From an uncultured Bacilli bacterium (GTDB lineage: Bacteria; Bacillota_I; Bacilli_A; RFN20; CAG-288), in NCBI GenBank assembly GCA_944371605.1, contig CALVXU010000031.1:1-64000 (forward strand): a stretch of DNA of 64,000 nucleotides. The letters are read 5' to 3'. This document shows, in pieces, positions 26,705 to 52,899 of the stretch. Within the stretch, counting starts at the first letter, position 1, and every line of letters begins with the position of its first letter. The translations under genes and the position numbers were made by a program. The notes beneath the pieces are model-generated. The model worked only from the letters and a program-made list of their open reading frames with translations, was not told the origin of the DNA and did no database searches.

Positions 26705-27949
26705 TCAATATGGTAATGGGAAATGTTTATTTAATTCGATGACTTGTTCCTTCAATGAACTCAGATATTTTAAATCATCTTTATGATTGATAGCATCATC
26801 GATATAATGCGCGATAGTGATAAATTCTTTTTCTTTATACCCTCTAGTTGTCATGGCTGGTGTTCCGATTCTAATCCCTGAAGAGATATAGGGCTTTTGT
26901 GTATCAAAAGGAATAGAGTTTCTATTAGCAGTGATGTTGATACTTTCAAGCAATTTTTGCGCTTCCATTCCAGTTATTCCCTTTGATCTTAAAATATCGA
27001 TCAAGAAGAGATGATTATCTGTTCCACCTGTTAAAACTTCGTAGTTCATGCTGATGAATTCATCGGCCATGGCTTTTGCATTTTTAACCACTTGTCCGAT
27101 GTATGTTTTGAACTCTGGCGATAAATCCTCTTTAAACGCGACTGCTTTAGCGGCGATGACGTGTTCTAAAGGTCCTCCTTGAAGTCCAGGAAAGACATTT
27201 TTATCTATTTTTTTAGCCAGTTCTTCATCATTTGTCATGATGATTCCACCGCGAGGTCCTCTTAAAGTTTTATGAGTGGTTGAAGTGATGATATCGCAAT
27301 ACTCTATCGGAGAGTTATGATAGCCGGTAGCAACTAGTCCAGCGATGTGAGCGATGTCGGCTATCAGATATGAATCCACTTCATCAGCGATTTCTTTAAA
27401 TTTTTTAAAATCTATCTCTCTTGAATAAGCGCTAGCACCACAGATGATCAGTTTAGGCTTGATTTTTAGAGCTAACTGTCTAACTTCTTCATAGTCTAAG
27501 CGATAAGTTTTTGGATTCACATCGTATCCATATGCTTCATAGTCCTTACCAGAAAAAGACAAAGAGTATCCATGAGTCAAATGGCCACCTGCATTGATAC
27601 TCATACCTAACAATTTATCGCCATGATTTATCAATGAGCGAATAGCTGCACAATTAGCTATTGAGCCAGAATAAGGTTGAACATTAACGTATTTTACATT
27701 AAATAATTGTTTTAATCGTTCTTTAGCTAAGTTTTCAACATCATCGACGTTTTCACAGCCGCCATAATAGCGATGATGTGGGTAACCTTCAGCATACTTA
27801 TTTGTTAAAATACTTCCTTGAGCTTGCAAAACCATAGGAGAAACAAAATTTTCACTAGCGATAAGTTCAGTGCTTTCTTGCTGCCTTTTGCGTTCGGCAC
27901 TTAGTATTTCAAATACTTGTTGATCGCTTTCTCTTAAATTATTTGACAT
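26705..27949 (-). CDS. glyA: Serine hydroxymethyltransferase
   Basis: 414-residue cytoplasmic PLP enzyme that interconverts serine and glycine while loading tetrahydrofolate with a one-carbon unit. Family signatures: ASENFVSP near the start, [15 protein letters not shown], the Schiff-base lysine in [12 protein letters not shown] (K227) and [14 protein letters not shown]. Length is normal. The nearest good ribosome site (GGGAGG) is about 40 bases before ATG with stops in frame between them, so the site may not serve this start; translation probably depends on a weak site. It heads an operon with addB and addA. Confidence 0.97.
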
Positions 27950-28260
27950 TTCAATATTTTAGCACTGATATTGCTTTATCAGAACTTTCCTCCCTGTGAT
28001 TAAATATTACAACAATTATTTCTCTTATTGCTATGTTTCTTTATATAATGCTCTTTTTGTTCAGCTAATAATATATTCATATTATATTGTTTTACACAAT
28101 AATCTAGTAAAAAGTTTTAGCCAATGTTTTAGAAGTTCTAATAACAAATAATAAGAGCCAATATGTAGATTTGTTATTGTCTTCAGCTAAAGTAGACTTA
28201 TTGAAATGCATTGAAAAAAAGAGATTAAAATTTTAAAATAATATTAGAGAGGGAATAGCT
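27950..28260. promoter_or_regulatory. Divergent promoter region between glyA and the C92 hydrolase gene
   Basis: For the plus-strand gene, TTGAAA (28211-28216), a 17-base spacer and TAAAAT (28234-28239) make a good promoter, followed by GAGAGGG before ATG 28261. For glyA on the other strand, AT-rich -10-like sequences are present but not decisive. No riboswitch recognised. Confidence 0.5.
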
Positions 28261-29514
28261 ATGAGATTTATTAAAAAATATGTAGTTTTATTTTTTGCAT
28301 TGATATTTTGTATGGTCTTTTCATCGGTTGATAGACTAAAAAATCAAAACACATTGATAGGTAATGCCACACAGATAAGAAGAGCTGAGATAGCAAATAG
28401 AACGAATAAAGCTAATCATATAAAACTAAAAAAATATTATATGGATATTTATGCTGAAACTATCATGAAGGGTTTTCCTTTGTGTAGTTTTGAACAATTT
28501 TGCGCCTTATATGAAGAAATGCAACTTAATGATTCTGACTTTATTAAATATATAATTTGTCAATCTCATAACGCTATAAATACAAATGGGATATCTCAAG
28601 CTTCTAGCTCAAGTGAAGATGCAAAATACATTTTATTAAATCAAAATAATAATATGATTACTTCTAATAGTGCATTTAATAATAATTATATTCCTACATA
28701 TTATGCATTTGACTATTCACATATAAAGGAAGGGGATGTTATTATCGAATTTGATGATAGTGGATCGATTGGTACGTATGTAGGTCACGCGGCTATTGTC
28801 TATGATTTAGATAAAAAAATGGAAAATGGTGATACATATATTCAAACAATTGAAGCTGTTGCTAGTGGTATTAAATTTGGATATTTAGATGATTCAAGAA
28901 TTCTTGAATTCAAAGCAGAGGTTTATTCGTTGGATTCTTTTTTATCTAATGAACAAATAAATAAAATTAAATTTTTTGCTGAAGAACAATTAGGAAAGCC
29001 ATACAGTTATGACTATGCTAGTCAAGATTTTGATATTAATACCGATTCTTGGTATTGCTCTGAATTAGTCTATGCAGCATATAGATACTCAGGAGCTGAC
29101 ATTGGAGAATTAACTAGAGCATGGCCGACTGATTTAAAAAATTCTTCTAACTTAAAACCTGCAAGTGTTCCAATTTTGAGAGGCTTAGAAATAACTAACA
29201 ATGGTGGAAGTTTTGCTTGCTGGCACATAGCTGTGACTAATACTGGGTCTCAGCCAATAACGGTGAATTATAATACAAAGATGTGCTTTAAAAATGATGC
29301 TAAAGATTGGAAAAATTTATCTGATATAGAGCAATTTTCTCTTGCTGGCAAAACAAAAAAAGTAGTTGATGTGTATTTTAATTTTTTTGCAGATGCAGTG
29401 GCCTTTTCATTTATGCATGAAGAATATATTTATGTTTCTTATGGATTCCTTTTGGAAGCGCAATACTCTTCTATGGTTTCTTTTAATGAAGTAATTGGGC
29501 CGAATAAAACATGA
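28261..29514 (+). CDS. Exported C92 (YiiX/YebB-like) cysteine hydrolase, module 1
   Basis: 417-residue protein with an N-terminal signal peptide or anchor (hydrophobic 7-23). The central domain (about 150-300) has the order of a permuted NlpC/P60 papain fold: EGDVIIEF, then His176 in GHAAIV, the IEAVASG stretch, then Cys266 in WYCSELVYAAY. In family C92 these are the catalytic pair; members cleave amide or ester bonds, and peptidoglycan or lipid substrates are both possible. The last 110 residues are an unassigned, probably beta-rich domain. Its stop overlaps the next gene as ATGA, so hydrolase and membrane protein are made together. A paralogue with identical His-Cys spacing is at 51622-52899. 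Confidence 0.82.
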   Translation: MRFIKKYVVLFFALIFCMVFSSVDRLKNQNTLIGNATQIRRAEIANRTNKANHIKLKKYYMDIYAETIMKGFPLCSFEQFCALYEEMQLNDSDFIKYIICQSHNAINTNGISQASSSSEDAKYILLNQNNNMITSNSAFNNNYIPTYYAFDYSHIKEGDVIIEFDDSGSIGTYVGHAAIVYDLDKKMENGDTYIQTIEAVASGIKFGYLDDSRILEFKAEVYSLDSFLSNEQINKIKFFAEEQLGKPYSYDYASQDFDINTDSWYCSELVYAAYRYSGADIGELTRAWPTDLKNSSNLKPASVPILRGLEITNNGGSFACWHIAVTNTGSQPITVNYNTKMCFKNDAKDWKNLSDIEQFSLAGKTKKVVDVYFNFFADAVAFSFMHEEYIYVSYGFLLEAQYSSMVSFNEVIGPNKT

Positions 29515-31445
29515 AACAATCTAAAAATAGTAAAAAGCAGCTAATCGATTTGTCTAACTTTCAACTAAAGAATGATTTATATATTTTGAGATTTGGCAAT
29601 GATAATGAATATTGGTCATTTTCTTTTTGTTTATCTCACAATTTATATTGTTGTAAAGATGAAAGTGTTGATAAGTTTTCATCAAAACACAATATCGGAT
29701 ATTTGATGAGAAATAACGAATGTTTATTCGAGTTGTCTATCAGAGAAAACTTTAAAATTTGTTCTGTTGCAACAGATGCCACAATATCTGATCAAATGAT
29801 TGTCAAACTGCTAAATGAAGTCAATTTTGATTGTGATTCCCTACCTAACTTTCTTGACGAATCATGTTTGTCGCTAGATCGAATTAATCTGATCAAACTC
29901 GGACTAGCACTGCTCCTATTAAAGAAACCCACTATTATTTTTATCGACGCTATTTTTCAAGACTTTGATAGCATTGAATGTGATCAATTATTAGCAATAT
30001 TACAAAAATTAAGTGAGACTCAAACAATAATCATAATCGATAAAAAAACAAATCATCATATTTTTAATAATGTAAAGATTATTGACTTTCAAAGTTCTTT
30101 TATAGTCATATCCAATGATAAAAATATCAAAATAAATGATGATTTCTCAATAAACAAAAATAGAACATTTGTTAAATCAGCATTAAAAGTTATTAATCGC
30201 ATTATTTCTGGCTGCAAAATGAAGAGCACTTTATCGAGCTTGTTCTTATCATTTGTTGTTGCTATTCTAGCTTTTTTTATAATTTACAAATGGACGAATT
30301 ATGATACAACGCTGCTTGATCTTTGCTATTCTAATGATATCAATTATGTGATGTTGTCTTCTAGAAGAATGACTTATTATGATCATGGAGGATTTGATGA
30401 TTCGGCCATTGATTTTTCTGAAGAACAATTAAAAACAATTGGTGAATACTGTGAACAAGATTATCTATTTATCAGTCAGTCGATAGATTTTTATAAGAAT
30501 AGCATTGATGATGAATATGAGTTTATGTCTAATGCTTCAGCTTTAATCGATTCTATTGGATATAACACATTTGAACTAGTGCTGAACACTAGCTCAAATC
30601 TTGATTTAAAAAGGGATCCTCGTATTAGCTTTGATATCAATATGCGGTTGCCAAGTTCTGACAATGAGATTGCTTTGACATGGCTTCAGGCAGATTTCTT
30701 GATGAAATATGGATTGATCTCTCATGGCAATCATGTCTTTTTGGATAGTTTAGATGATCTCATCGGCTTAGAAATCAATCATAAGAAAATAACAGGAATC
30801 TACTCGACTGAAGATGAAGACTTCTTTTCTAAACATGTGTCTTTTTCTGATTCTCATGATAAATATTCCGCACATTTTAACCATACTTTTGCCCTAGCCA
30901 GAAGTATAATCTCATTCAAAAAAATAGATTCAGGTGCCAATATCTTAGTAAGATTGTCTGGAGATAAACATAAAGATACGAATTTTATTAAAAGTTTAGA
31001 TAAGCGCGTCTTTGGCATCGGAGATTATGTTTCATTATCAACACCCTTCGATGCTTTCCCATTATCACAAAATATCTTTTCGATTGAATCACCTGGTTAT
31101 GGGTATTTTTTAGGAATTAGTTGGACTGTTTTATTGCTTATCTCTTATTTTATTAAAAGAAATACAATGCGCTTATATACACCATCTCTTTTTTATCGAT
31201 ACCGTTATTTGAAGTCTTATGGTTTTAGTAAACCAAAAGCAGAAATATTTGTTTGGTTTGTGATGTTAGTGCGCATCATCTTTGAATTTTTATCATCACT
31301 TGTATTTATTGGTTTAACATGTTTTGTATTCAATCGACTATCTTATTATTCTTTTTTAAGTCTAGGAGTTCTATCATCAGTATTAGTGTTGTTCATACTA
31401 GTCTTCATAGAAGAATTTATCTATTTTAGGCAATATCGAAAGTGA
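29511..31445 (+). CDS. FtsX/MacB-like permease fused to a degenerate ABC ATPase domain
   Basis: 644-residue protein. Residues about 10-205 look like an ABC ATPase that has lost its active site: IGYLMRNNECLFELSIRENF fits the Q-loop region, CLSLDRINLIKLGLALLLLKK fits the signature helix without LSGGQ, and PTIIFIDAIFQDFDS fits Walker B without the catalytic Glu. The P-loop region is shortened with no GxxxxGKS, and the switch His is replaced (IIIIDKK). Then a membrane helix (about 237-256), a roughly 270-residue outside domain with SDNEIALTWLQADFLMKYG and DDLIGLEI, as in FtsX/MacB-type permeases, and three more helices at the end. By analogy with FtsEX and its hydrolase it may position or control the C92 enzyme made just before it, here without ATP hydrolysis of its own. 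Confidence 0.75.
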   Translation: MKQSKNSKKQLIDLSNFQLKNDLYILRFGNDNEYWSFSFCLSHNLYCCKDESVDKFSSKHNIGYLMRNNECLFELSIRENFKICSVATDATISDQMIVKLLNEVNFDCDSLPNFLDESCLSLDRINLIKLGLALLLLKKPTIIFIDAIFQDFDSIECDQLLAILQKLSETQTIIIIDKKTNHHIFNNVKIIDFQSSFIVISNDKNIKINDDFSINKNRTFVKSALKVINRIISGCKMKSTLSSLFLSFVVAILAFFIIYKWTNYDTTLLDLCYSNDINYVMLSSRRMTYYDHGGFDDSAIDFSEEQLKTIGEYCEQDYLFISQSIDFYKNSIDDEYEFMSNASALIDSIGYNTFELVLNTSSNLDLKRDPRISFDINMRLPSSDNEIALTWLQADFLMKYGLISHGNHVFLDSLDDLIGLEINHKKITGIYSTEDEDFFSKHVSFSDSHDKYSAHFNHTFALARSIISFKKIDSGANILVRLSGDKHKDTNFIKSLDKRVFGIGDYVSLSTPFDAFPLSQNIFSIESPGYGYFLGISWTVLLLISYFIKRNTMRLYTPSLFYRYRYLKSYGFSKPKAEIFVWFVMLVRIIFEFLSSLVFIGLTCFVFNRLSYYSFLSLGVLSSVLVLFILVFIEEFIYFRQYRK

Positions 31446-31543
31446 TTCAAATCAGTAGAAATTTCTAAATGGAATTATGAGTGAAGTATAAAAATCATTC
31501 CTTTATGGTTTAATGAAAAGCGTTTTGATAAAATCAATATGTT
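31446..31543 (+). promoter_or_regulatory. Promoter of the HAD-mgtE operon
   Basis: TAAAAT at 31529-31534 is the best -10; the start codon follows nine bases later, so the leader would be two or three bases. The -35 is weak. Confidence 0.4.
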
Positions 31544-32191
31544 ATGAAAAAGCTAGCTTTAATCTTTGATTTTGATGGGACCATCACCGATAGTTATCAT
31601 CTTGAAAATCATGTCATGGCTGAGACGATCAGAAAATTTGCAAATCCAAATTTTCAAGATTTTGAGGTGCTTAAATATTATGGTCCGACTGAAGATGGAA
31701 TAGTAGCTAAGATTGTGTCCGATGATAAGCTTGAAGAAGCTAGACGCTTTTTATTTAAATTTTATGATGAGTATCAAAAAAGCATCGGATTGAAACCATT
31801 TCCAGGAATTAAAGAATTAATGCTAGAGTATCGGCATAAACTCAAGATTTTTATTTTGACAGGGCGCAGTAGAAAGACCCTTGACTTGTCTTTGGAATAT
31901 TTCGCTTTTCCTAGTATTTTTTCCGAAATATACACGGGCAGTCAGTCGGGCATCAATAAGACAGAAAACATACTGAAATTATGTGCTGACAATAACTTGA
32001 AGAGAGAGGAAGTAGTTTATATAGGTGACACATTAGAAGATATAAAATCAATGCATCAAGCTGGTGTCGATATCATCTCTTTCGGATTAGCACATAGCCA
32101 TAGCTATCAGATCGAATTAGAAAAAAATAATCCGAACATGTTAGCTAATGACATTCACGAATTAAAAGACTTAATCGATAGATTGATTTGA
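31544..32191 (+). CDS. HAD-superfamily phosphatase (phosphoglycolate phosphatase-like)
   Basis: 215-residue soluble hydrolase. Motif I IFDFDGTITDS (nucleophile D9, acid D11), motif II FILTGRSRKT, and motif III/IV around a lysine in NKTENI followed by VVYIGDTLEDI. The cap lies between residues 15 and 85. It resembles PpaX/Gph-type phosphatases; the substrate cannot be told. Its last codons overlap the space before mgtE, with which it probably shares a transcript. Confidence 0.82.
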   Translation: MKKLALIFDFDGTITDSYHLENHVMAETIRKFANPNFQDFEVLKYYGPTEDGIVAKIVSDDKLEEARRFLFKFYDEYQKSIGLKPFPGIKELMLEYRHKLKIFILTGRSRKTLDLSLEYFAFPSIFSEIYTGSQSGINKTENILKLCADNNLKREEVVYIGDTLEDIKSMHQAGVDIISFGLAHSHSYQIELEKNNPNMLANDIHELKDLIDRLI

Positions 32192-32217
32192 TCATCAATC
32201 ATAAAGAGGTGCGTTCT

Positions 32218-33744
32218 ATGACTGAAAATAATGAAAAATATCCTGTTCTAGAAGAATCCCTTCATAATACTGATACAGTTGACTCTAATAATTTTGTCGC
32301 TTTAAAATTGCATCGCTTTTTGATCACTAATGATCATGATGAGCTTTTGAATTTAATCGATAAAACCAGCTCTGTCAGTTTAGCTGAAGCTTTGAATTTA
32401 TTATCGAGCGATGAAACTGTTCTTTTCTTCTCTACCATATTAGATCAGCAAGTGTTAGGTGAAGTGTTCTCATATATCCGAGTTGAGTTAAAAGAAAAAA
32501 TTATTATAAATATTTCTAAGAAAAAAGTTGCTGGATTTCTTCAATTTGTTCAAAATGACGATTTAGCAGATTTTATTGAAGATTTACCTAAATCATTACG
32601 TGTCTTAACCCTGAGTTACCTACCTGCTAAAAGAAGACAGATAATCGAAAATCTCGCTAAATTCTCAGATGATACTATCGGATCTATCATGACTACTGAA
32701 TATTTAGCAGTCTTACCTACTACCAAAGTGAAAGATGTCTTTTTGAAAATTAAACAGATAGGTGATACTTTAGAAACTGTCAGACATATTTTTATAGTCG
32801 ACAGCAATAATAAATTGATCGGCATCGAGGCTTTAGAGGATATGATGTTTGTCGATGAAGAAATAGAGATAAAAGATATCATGTCAAAAGATTTCGCTTA
32901 TATTTCACCTATCGCTGATAAAGAAGAAGCTATTCCTATTTGCAAAAAATATGATTTACCTGTTTTACCTGTTTTATCTAAAAATGGTGAGATGTTAGGT
33001 ATCATCACGTTTGATGATGTGATGGATGTTGTCGAAGAAGAAAATACTGAAGATGTTTATAAACAAGCTGGTATCGCTCCTGCTGAAACACCGTATTTAG
33101 AAACTAAAGCATTTAAAATGGCTCGTTCATATGTTATTTGGCTCATCATTTTGCTGATCATAAACACTTTTTCAGGAATGATTATCTCTCGGTTTGAAGC
33201 AGCGTTATTAACTCTTCCGATTTTGACTTGCTTCATACCTGCTTTGAACGATTCTTGCGGAGATGCTGGCGATCAAACTTCTTCGATGGTTATCAGAGCA
33301 TTAGCGACAGGTGAAATAAAAAATAAAGATTATTTGAAAGTCGCTTTAAAAGAGCTGCTAGCAGGATTTATAACGGCTATTATCATCGCTATTTTTAATT
33401 TTGGCTGGGTGATGTTAGAGATGAATACTAACTTGATAAATACTGATAATGCCTTTACTCCTGAGTTCATCCAACAAGCAGGCGGCATTTATAACGCCCA
33501 AATGATCATAGCGGCAGTTGTTTCTCTCGCTTTTTTATTCGGTATCACTTGTGCGAAACTTTTGGCATCTATTTTACCGATAATCGCGAAAGCATGCCAT
33601 CTTGACCCGGCTGTGATGTCTGGGCCTTTGATCGCATCGATGATGGACATCTTAACTCTTTTAGTCTATTTTGCCGTAGCCCTGGTTTTGATAGATAGCA
33701 TCATGCCGGGAGAATTAGTCGTCTCGTATTTGAGCATGCTATAG
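32218..33744 (+). CDS. mgtE: MgtE-type magnesium channel 1
   Basis: 508-residue divalent cation channel. The N-domain superhelix (about 25-130) has DLADFIEDLPKSLRV, two CBS domains follow (about 140-265, with MSKDFAYISPIADKEEA), and a five-helix membrane domain begins near 295 (SYVIWLIILLIINTF). The CBS region is the magnesium-sensing gate in this family. ATG 32218 is used because AAGAGGTG lies eight bases upstream; an earlier in-frame start overlapping the HAD gene has none. It is 14 bases before a second mgtE. Confidence 0.93.
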   Translation: MTENNEKYPVLEESLHNTDTVDSNNFVALKLHRFLITNDHDELLNLIDKTSSVSLAEALNLLSSDETVLFFSTILDQQVLGEVFSYIRVELKEKIIINISKKKVAGFLQFVQNDDLADFIEDLPKSLRVLTLSYLPAKRRQIIENLAKFSDDTIGSIMTTEYLAVLPTTKVKDVFLKIKQIGDTLETVRHIFIVDSNNKLIGIEALEDMMFVDEEIEIKDIMSKDFAYISPIADKEEAIPICKKYDLPVLPVLSKNGEMLGIITFDDVMDVVEEENTEDVYKQAGIAPAETPYLETKAFKMARSYVIWLIILLIINTFSGMIISRFEAALLTLPILTCFIPALNDSCGDAGDQTSSMVIRALATGEIKNKDYLKVALKELLAGFITAIIIAIFNFGWVMLEMNTNLINTDNAFTPEFIQQAGGIYNAQMIIAAVVSLAFLFGITCAKLLASILPIIAKACHLDPAVMSGPLIASMMDILTLLVYFAVALVLIDSIMPGELVVSYLSML

Positions 33745-33758
33745 AAAGGAGTCAGAAT

Positions 33759-35249
33759 ATGAATCAAGAATTGAATGAATTCGAGAATCAAAAAGAGATT
33801 CAGGCTGATAACTCTATAGCTAGTGTTCATGATAAGATGACTATTTCGCAATTGGAAAAATTGCTCGATAGTCATAATAATGCGGCGTTAGAAAAAGAAG
33901 TTGCTGAGTCTGACCCACATAATGTCGCTGACGCCTTGATAGAATTATCAGAAGAAAAGATTTTAATCTTCTTTAAGTCTTTGCCTTCTGATATCTCAGC
34001 TGATGTCTTCACTTGTCTCTCACAAGATGATAAAGAAAAGGTAGCAAGAGCTTTTTCTTCGGAAGAACTACAAAAATTATTGGAAGAGATGTCCACAGAT
34101 AATATCGTAGATTTTTTAGATGATTTACCAGCTAATCTAGTCACTAAGGTTTTGCGGTATACATCAAGTGAAGATCGCAAAAGGATAAGCACCTATTTAA
34201 AGTTTAAAGATGACAGCGCTGGAACTTTGATGACACCAGAATATTTAGCGATTAAAGATAGCTATACTGTTGAAGAAACAATTCAAAAAATCCGTCAAGT
34301 CGGTAAAGATTTAGAGACGATTTGGCGCATCTTTGTTGTTGATAACACCCGTCGTCTGATCGGTTCTATCAGATTGGATCATCTTTTAGAAGCCGATGCT
34401 AATGACGTGATCAAATCTGTGATGGATTATAACAATTTAGCAGTGAAAGTCGACACTGATGAAGAAGTGGTCATCAAAACTTTCCGCAAATATGATATCT
34501 CTATTTTGCCAGTCACTGATAATAATGGCCGAATGGTTGGCATCATCACCTTTGATGATGTCATGGATGTCGCAGAAGAAGAAAATACTGAGGATATTCA
34601 AATATCAGCAGCTATTGTTCCTAATGATAAACCATATTTAAAAACAAGTGTTTTGAAGCTGGTGAAAAGTTATGCGCCTTGGATCTTGTTTTTGCTGGTT
34701 TTGAACACTTTTACTTCGATGGTTTTGTCATATTTGAACGCACCATTAGCAGTCATACCATTATTGACCGCCTTCTTACCCGCTATCATGGGGACTAATG
34801 GAAATGCCTCAGATCAAACCTGTACTGTTATAACAAGAGAATTAGCTTTAGATAATATATCCCCTAAAACTTATTGGAAAACTGTTTTAAAAGAGTTTAA
34901 AGCTTCGGTTGTGACTTCCTGCATCATGGCTGTTTTCTCTTTTGTGTGGGTATTAATAGAACTATATTCTGGAATTATTTCTTTGACTGCTACTGATACT
35001 AATGTGATAAGCAATTTATATAATGGCAACCAACATGTTTTATTTGTCAGCGTTGCTTTTGTCATTTCTTTAACATTCTTTGTCGTCATTGTCATCGCTA
35101 AGTTCTTAGGTGTGTCTTTGCCGATGCTCGCTAAAAAGATTCATCTCGATCCAGCAGTGATGAGTCAACCTGTGATTTCTAATATCCTCGATATCATTTC
35201 TATATGTGTCTATTTCGCTTTTGTGGTATTAATAATTAGAGGTGTTTAA
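33759..35249 (+). CDS. mgtE: MgtE-type magnesium channel 2
   Basis: 496-residue paralogue of the preceding gene with the same layout: N-domain with NIVDFLDDLPANL, CBS pair with GIITFDDVMDVAEEENTED (the same linker as its neighbour) and a five-helix membrane part with GTNGNASDQT in the pore region, closer to the classical GNAGxQ than copy 1 (GDAGDQT). AAAGGAG precedes ATG. MgtE works as a homodimer; two tandem, diverged copies suggest that they could form a heterodimer or serve different conditions (inference). Confidence 0.93.
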   Translation: MNQELNEFENQKEIQADNSIASVHDKMTISQLEKLLDSHNNAALEKEVAESDPHNVADALIELSEEKILIFFKSLPSDISADVFTCLSQDDKEKVARAFSSEELQKLLEEMSTDNIVDFLDDLPANLVTKVLRYTSSEDRKRISTYLKFKDDSAGTLMTPEYLAIKDSYTVEETIQKIRQVGKDLETIWRIFVVDNTRRLIGSIRLDHLLEADANDVIKSVMDYNNLAVKVDTDEEVVIKTFRKYDISILPVTDNNGRMVGIITFDDVMDVAEEENTEDIQISAAIVPNDKPYLKTSVLKLVKSYAPWILFLLVLNTFTSMVLSYLNAPLAVIPLLTAFLPAIMGTNGNASDQTCTVITRELALDNISPKTYWKTVLKEFKASVVTSCIMAVFSFVWVLIELYSGIISLTATDTNVISNLYNGNQHVLFVSVAFVISLTFFVVIVIAKFLGVSLPMLAKKIHLDPAVMSQPVISNILDIISICVYFAFVVLIIRGV

Positions 35250-50204: not shown

Positions 50205-51629
50205 TTATTGGTCCATTAATGATCTATCTGTTTCTTTGGGCTTTTTAGCACATCCTTTTATTACGAGCATTATAAGATAGCATATTGCTGATAAGCATAT
50301 AATAAAGAGAAGTCCATAGCCAAAGGTCATCCAGTTAAGGTAAAGAATCGAATGAGAAAAAAAGCTGTTAGAAATGATCAATAGTAACCAAGTTAGAGGT
50401 AAAGATAATAGATAAAGAATAACCATAATAGGAAAAATTATCGTGCTATATAAAGCAGATGATTTGAAAGTCATAATATTAGATTGCTTGTTGCTTTGTA
50501 AAATTGCATGAATTAGTTTGACTAAAAAAGTAACTATAAAAATTATTATAAATACAATGATAAAAGCCATCGTTAGTAAATAGATTTTAGATGTAAAAGT
50601 ATTTACTGCAGAATCGATAGAGACTAAGTCTGTATTTGAAAAATACACATGCATTTTATAATGATCAAAGCAACTACCTGTATTTACTGTTCCATCAAAA
50701 GAAGAACTATAAAAATTGAGACCATTTAATAATTTTAAGTTTTTTGAATAATCATCTTTTAGTTTGATATATATTCCATAATCTTTTGGTGCTTCTTTTG
50801 AAAAGGTTTTTTGTAAAAAGTTATTAAGCGAACCTTTTAATACAAATACTGAATTATCATAGAAACATGGTGCTTCATCCATTCTAATAGATATATTATT
50901 ATCTACCCATTCTTTATATTCTGGGGTTTCAAAAATGCCACAAATAGTGTGACCAGAGAGTGTTTTGCCTATCAGCTCATCAGGAGAATTAAATTTTAAA
51001 ATTTTACCACCTTTTTCCACTCTATATCCGTACTTTAGATAGTAATCAGCTTTATATGATGTCAATGCTATTTCCGCCTCATTTTCAGGCATATGATTAT
51101 TGATGGTTTTTGAAAGTCTACGATCGGGTGATAGATTCATATAATTATTATTTTTATCGACTTCAAATACTTTGAATTGTTGTCCAGCTGCAGCACAATG
51201 ATAGTAGACTACTTCATTTTCATAAAAGGGTGAATTCTCCCAGTAGTCTAAAAAAACTGCATCTATAGAATCATATGAATATTGAAGTTTAGAATAATAA
51301 GTGATGGCAGGAAGACCATCTAGATACTCATCAATCGCTTTCAGTTGCTTATTTGAAAACATAGGAGTCAGAAAATGATATCCCCATTTGAGAGTGTATT
51401 TTTGATTTTTTGGATAAATGATTGTCTCTCTTCTATCGCTATTGGTTAAAACTGTAGCTGCGATTTGATTGATGTTAGCGCAATATTTCGATATATCACA
51501 AGTGAGAATGGATATAGATATTAAAAATAAAATTATTAATATTGTAGACTTGATTTTATTCTTAAAAAACTCTTTAACAATAGTGATAAAATGTTTTATA
51601 TATTTTTTATCTTTTAATGCTTTATTCAT
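50205..51629 (-). CDS. FtsX/MacB-like membrane protein, module 2
   Basis: 474-residue protein with FtsX-like topology: one helix near the start (about 27-46), an outside domain of about 300 residues with ENEAEIALTSYKADYYLKYG and DELIGKTLSGHTICGIF, then three helices at about 352-374, 390-420 and 432-462. The outside part aligns by motif with the permease half of the 29511-31445 protein, but no ATPase domain is present here and none is encoded beside it. It overlaps the C92 hydrolase gene by eight bases. The role is inferred from the pairing: a membrane partner or regulator of the hydrolase. Confidence 0.7.
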   Translation of the reverse strand: MNKALKDKKYIKHFITIVKEFFKNKIKSTILIILFLISISILTCDISKYCANINQIAATVLTNSDRRETIIYPKNQKYTLKWGYHFLTPMFSNKQLKAIDEYLDGLPAITYYSKLQYSYDSIDAVFLDYWENSPFYENEVVYYHCAAAGQQFKVFEVDKNNNYMNLSPDRRLSKTINNHMPENEAEIALTSYKADYYLKYGYRVEKGGKILKFNSPDELIGKTLSGHTICGIFETPEYKEWVDNNISIRMDEAPCFYDNSVFVLKGSLNNFLQKTFSKEAPKDYGIYIKLKDDYSKNLKLLNGLNFYSSSFDGTVNTGSCFDHYKMHVYFSNTDLVSIDSAVNTFTSKIYLLTMAFIIVFIIIFIVTFLVKLIHAILQSNKQSNIMTFKSSALYSTIIFPIMVILYLLSLPLTWLLLIISNSFFSHSILYLNWMTFGYGLLFIICLSAICYLIMLVIKGCAKKPKETDRSLMDQ

Positions 51630-52899
51630 TATAAATCACCGAGTATCTTACCATTATGAATCTAGAAGTAGCATTAAGAGAATCTGCATAAGTGATGTAT
51701 CGATAAAATTCATCTATATAGCTACAAGCAATAGCAGTCGCAAATAAATTTTCAGTGATTTCTACATCAGCTGATGAATAAGCACTTATATTCACTAAAT
51801 CGATGTCTTTCAAATTATTAGTATTCCAATATTGCGCATCTTCTAAGTTGCACATTTTTGAATTATACATGGCAGTTAAATCAACAGGATTGTTATTTAT
51901 AATAGAAATCGTCCAAGTAGAGCCGTTTTTATTTACTATTGCTAACCTTAAATTTTTTGGCTTTATAATAATTTCTCCAACCATATCACTAAGATAAATA
52001 TGAATTGGCCAAACTGCATTGGTCTCTTCTGTTTTCCCTATGTAGTAGCTTATATCAATTTCAGCATACATATAGGCCGCCCATACTAATTCAGAACAAT
52101 ACCAGTCTTCTGAGTCTATATTGCTATGAGCTTTTCTATCGTAATCAGGGCAATATTTTTTTCCTAATTGTTGTTCAGCAAAATAAATGACTAGAGGAAT
52201 ATAGCTCATTGTTGGTGCAGTTGTTCTCAAAATTTTTACACCAAAGTCAACTATTCTTTGGTCATCTAAGAATCCATAATTAACACCGCTTCCAACCGCT
52301 TCTATAGTTTGAATAAAATAACGCCCATCAGTTGTTTTTTGATCAAGTTTTGTGATCAAAGCATTATGACCAGCATTAAAAAAAATGGTCACAGTTTCAT
52401 AGATGATATCTCCATTCATAAGTATTTTTACTAATGAATCATAATCATAATAGATAGGTAGCTCTTTAAAAACATCAGTCGGTGTTTCATCATACGTTGT
52501 TGAATTCAATACGTAGTAAGCATCTGAACTAGAACTCGAAACAGTGGCATATTTGGCTTTTTTAGAACTGCACATACTGATATTTTGAAATTCCTCTAAA
52601 GTATTAGCGTGTCGCCACTTTAGACAATATTCTGGAAGTGAAAAATTATATTCATAATACAACTCACAAAAAGTTGAAAAATCAATGAAGCTATTTTGCA
52701 ATTGTTTTTTTTCGATTAGAATTGGCTCATAATAATTCCAAAAAACATCTTTGTATGAGAATACTTCTTCATTATTTTGATTCTTGCTAACCAAATGATG
52801 TGGGATATTGGAAAGATTTATTGTAGGTTTTTTCTCTTGACTTGAGAACAGCATAAAAAGAGCTAAGAAAATAGAACAAAAAATGCGACATAATTTCAT
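51622..52899 (-). CDS. Exported C92 (YiiX/YebB-like) cysteine hydrolase, module 2
   Basis: 425-residue paralogue of the 28261-29514 protein. Signal peptide (5-20), unassigned N-terminal helical part, then the permuted papain-fold domain with His178 in GHNALI, TIEAVGSGVNYGFLDD and Cys268 in WYCSELVWAAY. The spacing between the two catalytic residues (90) equals that in module 1, and the flanking text is closely similar. A C-terminal beta-rich domain follows. AGAGGTGG precedes ATG. Substrate unknown; peptidoglycan, lipid or a peptide are all open. Confidence 0.82.
   Translation of the reverse strand: MKLCRIFCSIFLALFMLFSSQEKKPTINLSNIPHHLVSKNQNNEEVFSYKDVFWNYYEPILIEKKQLQNSFIDFSTFCELYYEYNFSLPEYCLKWRHANTLEEFQNISMCSSKKAKYATVSSSSSDAYYVLNSTTYDETPTDVFKELPIYYDYDSLVKILMNGDIIYETVTIFFNAGHNALITKLDQKTTDGRYFIQTIEAVGSGVNYGFLDDQRIVDFGVKILRTTAPTMSYIPLVIYFAEQQLGKKYCPDYDRKAHSNIDSEDWYCSELVWAAYMYAEIDISYYIGKTEETNAVWPIHIYLSDMVGEIIIKPKNLRLAIVNKNGSTWTISIINNNPVDLTAMYNSKMCNLEDAQYWNTNNLKDIDLVNISAYSSADVEITENLFATAIACSYIDEFYRYITYADSLNATSRFIMVRYSVIYNE

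Follow-up and report, generated by a model that had tools for sequence, protein, structure and literature searches.

What can an ABC transporter still do when its ATPase domain has lost the motifs with which such domains handle ATP? The question is raised by an open reading frame of 644 amino acids at positions 29511–31445 (forward strand) of the window, the whole 64,000-nucleotide stretch of DNA that was analyzed, where a first-pass annotation had described an ABC ATPase-like domain without catalytic motifs fused in frame to a permease. The genome to which the window belongs (G000), that of a gut bacterium that is probably wall-less, amounts to 1.43 Mb in 33 contigs and is ~90% complete. The answer that we favor, with slightly better than even confidence, is that the locus encodes what is left of a type VII ABC-hydrolase system, now independent of ATP, in which the pseudo-ATPase domain would be partly kept as a docking element.

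A degenerate ABC ATPase domain fused to a type VII permease

Residues 1–215 of the 644-aa protein (29511–30155, forward strand) form a degenerate ABC ATPase (nucleotide-binding) domain, with homology demonstrable over residues ~50–205 by NCBIfam, profile–profile and fold comparisons. Pfam ABC_tran does not match the protein, nor does any Pfam domain match anywhere in it, and its first ~48 residues have no reliable alignment to intact ATPases. The NCBIfam ABC subfamilies match residues 58–210 with a best E-value of 3.3e-6, and an hhalign comparison of the N-terminal region, as a profile from two species, with the intact ATPase domains of relatives gave P 1.8e-10 at a score of 71, where the highest score among 20 column-shuffled controls was 17. 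Full-length relatives are collinear with the protein in alignment, proceeding from the ATPase domain through a linker and TM1 to the extracellular domain and TM2–TM4. An AlphaFold model of residues 1–220 (pLDDT 68.6, pTM 0.70, residues 60–190 mostly at 80–92) matches the MacB domain (5lj9, Z 14.0), FtsE (6z4w, Z 15.0) and likewise YtrE, all with Z about 14–15; because the alignment behind this model included intact ATPase homologues from a scan of viral contigs, the fold match is supportive of homology and not independent of it. A model of the whole protein built from three sequences was unusable (pLDDT 36.7), and the viral-contig scan with the permease profile returned no relatives. Common ancestry and fold with ABC ATPases are thus confirmed, as the first-pass annotation had proposed from the letters of the DNA.

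Aligned motif by motif with its intact relatives, the domain has lost all of the catalytic motifs, and this part of the earlier description holds in full. At its start the fold lacks ~35 residues, comprising its first strands, and SKNSKK stands where the relatives have the Walker A motif GxSGSGKT. The text of the Q-loop region had been described as kept, and it does survive as IGYLMRNNE (29694–29720, forward strand; IGFVFQDYN in relatives), but the Gln itself is gone, being replaced by Arg here and by Lys in two relatives. The former signature motif and the start of its helix read LDRINLIK (29874–29897, forward strand) in place of LSGGQRQR, and the former Walker B strand reads TIIFIDAI (29931–29954, forward strand) where relatives have LLLDEP, so that the Asp is kept and the catalytic Glu is replaced by Ala, or by Asn in an orthologue from another species (L013). 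The D-loop has changed from SLD to DFD, and the former H-switch strand, IIIIDKK (30027–30047, forward strand), has lost its His through replacement of STHD by IDKK. With the Walker A motif, the Q-loop Gln, LSGGQ, the Walker B Glu and the switch His all absent or replaced, the domain is an ABC ATPase homologue and not a functional ABC ATPase, and the 644-aa protein can most likely no longer bind or hydrolyze ATP. Nor does the protein qualify as a working type VII ABC transporter in the sense of ATP-driven mechanotransmission, as the chain contains no ATP site, though a partner might supply one.

The remainder of the protein (30180–31442, forward strand) is an FtsX/MacB-type permease domain, recognized by homology to the permease of the intact relatives and by profile matches, with TM1 at residues ~240–263, an extracellular domain at ~264–527, and TM2–TM4. 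In the PDB, a profile built from 14 homologous permease domains finds MacB (1.6e-4), FtsX, YtrF and LolF, which bears out the fusion of the ATPase-like domain to a permease, and the FtsX Pfam family scores above its cut-off in two homologues (L059 and L011). Between TM2 and TM3 the coupling helix, YRYRYLKSYGFSK (31194–31232, forward strand), is still recognizable by its conserved Gly. Sequence, the order of TM1, extracellular domain and TM2–TM4, and the coupling helix together place the domain among the type VII (MacB/FtsX) permeases.

Selection and loss in the ATPase domain

The first-pass annotation had taken the domain to be retained rather than decaying, reasoning from its being open and fused in frame. 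This is a weak argument, because a stop codon or frameshift would also destroy the downstream permease. An orthologue in another species (L013/L007) is 87% identical, has lost the same motifs, and shares with the window the gene order SHMT, C92 hydrolase, pseudo-ATPase gene, HAD, MgtE, MgtE. Selection was measured as Nei–Gojobori omega on a single orthologous pair, with 1000 neutral simulations of matched composition and transition bias. Over residues 1–210 omega is 0.25 (bootstrap 0.15–0.43), a value reached by 2 of the 1000 simulations, whose median was 0.59; over residues 60–140 it is 0.12, as low in 1 of 1000, and over residues 140–210 it is 0.87, indistinguishable from neutral (702 of 1000), there being few synonymous changes in that stretch. 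The permease has an omega of 0.23, and no simulation of the 1000 was as low. Purifying selection therefore acts on residues 60–140 of the pseudo-ATPase, and it is this segment that carries the low value of the domain as a whole, while the part from Walker B to the switch, at residues 140–210, is without detectable selection and may be drifting. Retention is accordingly supported for residues 60–140, within a degenerate domain common to two species, and not for residues 140–210. Residues 60–140 come after the Q-loop region and include the helical subdomain and the signature helix, which in ABC ATPases adjoin the coupling helix of the permease. Synonymous divergence between 26705–35249 of the window and L013 is itself uneven, at about 1.1 for SHMT, 0.6 for the C92 gene and 0.05 for HAD and MgtE, and the switch falls inside the pseudo-ATPase/permease gene, which likely marks a recombination tract.

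The 644-aa protein is one of three members of its family in this genome that lack a working ATPase. The second (L002) is a protein of 669 aa that is 28% identical to it and also P-loop-less, and the third is a paralogous permease of 474 aa (50205–51629, reverse strand; permease profile E 1e-165) that has no ATPase domain at all, its N-terminus starting just before TM1. A profile search of this ~90% complete genome found no member of the family with an intact ATPase. Within the same genus, one genome (G006) has a domain-free permease (L008), another (G008) has a partly degraded ATPase in which the signature is lost and the Walker B DEP is kept, on a contig that is cut, and a third (G013) has an intact ATPase (L011); beyond the genus, fused forms with an intact ATPase are common in both order and class, L058–L061 and L063 being among those of the order. 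Since the motifs are intact in relatives from both genus and order, the ATPase was lost. There are, then, homologues whose P-loop is intact, a finding that the first-pass annotation would have read as recent decay; the loss is not recent, however, because it is common to two species and to a paralogue of 28% identity.

A tree of 29 permeases, whose deep branches are long and only partly resolved, was used to consider a single loss. Placing the four domain-free permeases in one clade was rejected (p 1.2e-4), as was placing all eight non-intact proteins in one clade (p 5e-7); a single clade of the three pseudo-ATPase proteins is compatible with the tree (p 0.19).

The chief rival to the docking-element reading is non-functional erosion, in which a dispensable ATPase domain decays, persists only through being in frame upstream of the permease, and is heading for deletion as in 50205–51629; we regard this as possible, if on the whole unlikely. 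It accounts well for the graded series of forms, from intact through partly degraded (L057) and pseudo (the 644-aa protein and L002) to absent (50205 and L008), and the domain-free close relatives at the end of that series fit continuing erosion, as do residues 140–210, where the rate cannot be told from neutral. It also accounts for the fate of L002 in the sister genome G012, where the orthologue is a C-terminal remnant with a stop (L054:3180–3510) flanked by GH3 and glgC, the same neighbors as those of the full gene in G000, so that at least the L002 copy is dispensable. What erosion does not predict is the constraint on residues 60–140, at an omega so rarely reached under neutrality, nor that the residues conserved between the two 28%-identical pseudo-ATPases should be concentrated in the helical subdomain and the signature helix. 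The coupling helix, too, is kept mainly where the domain is present: its Gly is found in all 15 of the listed proteins with such a domain, whether ATPase or pseudo-ATPase, and in 1 of the 4 that have neither (Fisher p 0.004, relatedness ignored), and the motif is lost in three of those four paralogues or relatives, as would be expected if the domain and the helix matter only to each other.

An asymmetric heterodimer, in which an intact fused ATPase-permease encoded elsewhere hydrolyzes ATP for the 644-aa protein, seems to us improbable. The genome does hold one intact fused ATPase-permease (L004) and about 40 ABC_tran ATPases, but none of the members of this permease family found there is intact, the other FtsX-type permeases above cut-off have an ATPase in frame or an ATPase gene nearby, and an intact partner adjoins neither of the window's loci. 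Known degenerate sites, moreover, keep most of their nucleotide-binding motifs, and here all are gone. Suggestive of such pairing is a tandem in another genome (L144:3004–6757 in G408), where an intact ATPase-permease of 729 aa and a domain-free permease of 489 aa from the same family lie together and may form an asymmetric pair.

The adjoining hydrolases and the NSKMC domain

The gene immediately upstream (28261–29514, forward strand) encodes a predicted secreted, permuted papain-like hydrolase of 417 aa of the Peptidase_C92 family, YiiX/YaeF type (Pfam E 6e-10, 39.8 bits against a cut-off of 27), with a hydrophobic, signal-like N-terminus, and its TGA overlaps the ATG of the pseudo-ATPase gene by 4 bases (ATGA). 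The catalytic residues of C92-type enzymes, a His, Glu, Tyr and Cys known from Bacillus cereus and Escherichia coli structures (PMC3142127), are present as H176, E198, Y248 and C266, so that both the Pfam score and the permuted active site place the protein in the family. Across an alignment of 15 homologues the His is found in 14 of 14, the Glu in 13 of 14, the Tyr in 14 of 15 and the Cys in 15 of 15; the one exception at Glu is the orthologue in the sister species (L013:3736–5004), which has Lys at the position of window residue 198. A second hydrolase of this kind, of 425 aa and likewise predicted to be secreted from profile matches and the C92 alignment, is encoded at 51622–52899 (reverse strand) and overlaps the start of the domain-free permease (51629) by 8 bases, and a domain-free permease also adjoins such a gene in G006 (L008) and at L143.

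Both hydrolases, like the one in G006, share a domain of ~90 aa, here named NSKMC (consensus ...YNSKMCF..DA..W.NL.D...), that is C-terminal in the first (29185–29454, forward strand; delineated by alignment, with an own-genome match of E 3e-36 and no Pfam match) and lies at 51673–51951 (reverse strand) in the second. Comparison with solved structures gave no convincing match (best E 0.22), and the domain appears to be undescribed in the libraries searched. It recurs at L059, L060, L061, L063, L125–L143 and L145, and a search of 279 genomes of the order found it in 24, where it is carried by secreted proteins of the C92, subtilisin, trypsin-like and C39-like kinds. At 7 of 19 loci, counted from the domain search with seed loci excluded, it lies directly beside an FtsX-type transporter or permease, for which the chance probability is about 2e-11 on the assumption of ~9 FtsX-type genes in 1400, gene numbers being estimates. 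C92-NSKMC genes without a type VII permease mostly precede an unrelated polytopic membrane protein (L050, L051, L128, L129 and L134), so the type VII permease is not obligatory. At L050:4844–5665, L051:4512–5318 and L134:4649–5476 the proteins in the permease's place are polytopic, ~270 aa long, and have no Pfam family or sub-threshold matches only. NSKMC connects a large number of unannotated genes in uncultured Bacilli with a single envelope system.

Neither the Mur ligase (PF08245) nor the PBP transpeptidase (PF00905) was detected in the ~90% complete G000, so the cell is probably without peptidoglycan of its own, and the substrate of the hydrolase is more likely a lipid, a protein or something foreign than the cell's own wall. 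Repeated loss of peptidoglycan is known from related families of Bacilli (PMC10868615). This bears on a further alternative, that the permease acts like FtsEX, switching on the C92 protein so that it cleaves peptidoglycan made by the cell itself. The pairing of an FtsX-type permease with a secreted enzyme of the NlpC/P60 superfamily invites the comparison, FtsEX controlling such enzymes in other bacteria (PMC11627006), but with no peptidoglycan synthesis genes of these two families detected the locus does not fit an FtsEX peptidoglycan-hydrolase system, and in relatives a subtilisin-, trypsin- or C39-like protein takes the place of the partner hydrolase; we consider this alternative very improbable. 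Chance resemblance of the N-terminal region to an ABC ATPase, for which the lack of an ABC_tran match and the unalignable first ~48 residues might speak, is already refuted by the NCBIfam (3e-6) and shuffle-controlled hhalign (1.8e-10) matches, the fold match, and its position at that of the intact ATPase of full-length homologues.

A probably unpowered permease and its relation to known systems

In the usual description of type VII ABC systems, movement outside the cell is driven by the binding of ATP in the cytoplasm; as a rule the permease also has an extracytoplasmic partner, such as EnvC, LolA or TesA. Our preferred reading, that of an ATP-independent remnant, starts from an ancestor that would have been a fused, MacB-like type VII transporter with an intact ATPase; in the relatives where the ATPase is intact, ATP-driven movement is probably the means by which the transporter acts on its secreted hydrolase or together with it. 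The extracellular domain of the permease would hold or position the secreted hydrolase at the membrane, as with EnvC, LolA and TesA, an association that we infer from the adjacency and overlap of the genes. Such positioning could work without ATP-driven movement, the permease then serving as an unpowered anchor or presenter, and this is the most likely role given that the motor has been lost and the permease and the enzyme's active site kept. The surviving half of the pseudo-ATPase would serve as a structural foot for docking to the coupling helix. More tentatively, and with rather low confidence, we suggest that type VII permeases independent of ATP ("pseudo-ABC") may form a whole class, acting as membrane receptors for secreted hydrolases by way of NSKMC, the motor having been discarded repeatedly. 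If true, the receptor reading would mean that no motor is needed for the extracellular half of a type VII system to function. A lineage where the motor is dead or gone and the permease and the neighboring enzyme's active site are kept would separate a scaffold role from a motor role and so make the distinction testable.

All parts of the system except NSKMC belong to known sequence families. The open-access literature searched, subscription papers lying outside the search, yielded no precedent for ATPase-less type VII systems, nor the combination seen here of a type VII permease whose ATPase is dead or absent, and repeatedly lost, beside an intact secreted hydrolase. Degenerate sites in heterodimeric ABC exporters, such as ABCB11, have likewise lost the Walker B catalytic Glu, but they keep Walker A and bind nucleotide (PMC7544095), whereas here the whole site is gone and there is no evident intact partner.

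With the MacB family and other type VII ABC systems (MacB, LolCDE, FtsEX, YtrEF and BceAB) the 644-aa protein shares an N-terminal ATPase-type domain, four TM helices, a large extracellular domain between TM1 and TM2, and a coupling helix between TM2 and TM3. It differs in that every ATP motif is gone, with paralogues lacking the domain altogether, and in that its neighbor is a secreted hydrolase and no MacA/TolC-like partner is present. A type VII ABC permease with a hydrolase partner is also known from E. coli, in YbbAP-TesA (PMC12646458), and there as here the permease is genomically paired with a secreted hydrolase, the evidence at our locus being adjacency and overlap of the genes; TesA, however, is a thioesterase/esterase and not a papain-like enzyme of the C92 family, ATP is bound by a subunit of its own, YbbA, and the YbbP permease is a fused double unit. 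The lipoprotein N-acyltransferase LnsAB of Staphylococcus aureus, in which the YiiX-like LnsA depends on a membrane protein (PMC7387801), offers a parallel from the side of the enzyme, a permuted papain-like, YiiX/YaeF-related protein that needs a polytopic membrane protein, although LnsB is CAAX-protease-like and not an FtsX-type permease, and the lns genes are non-adjacent.
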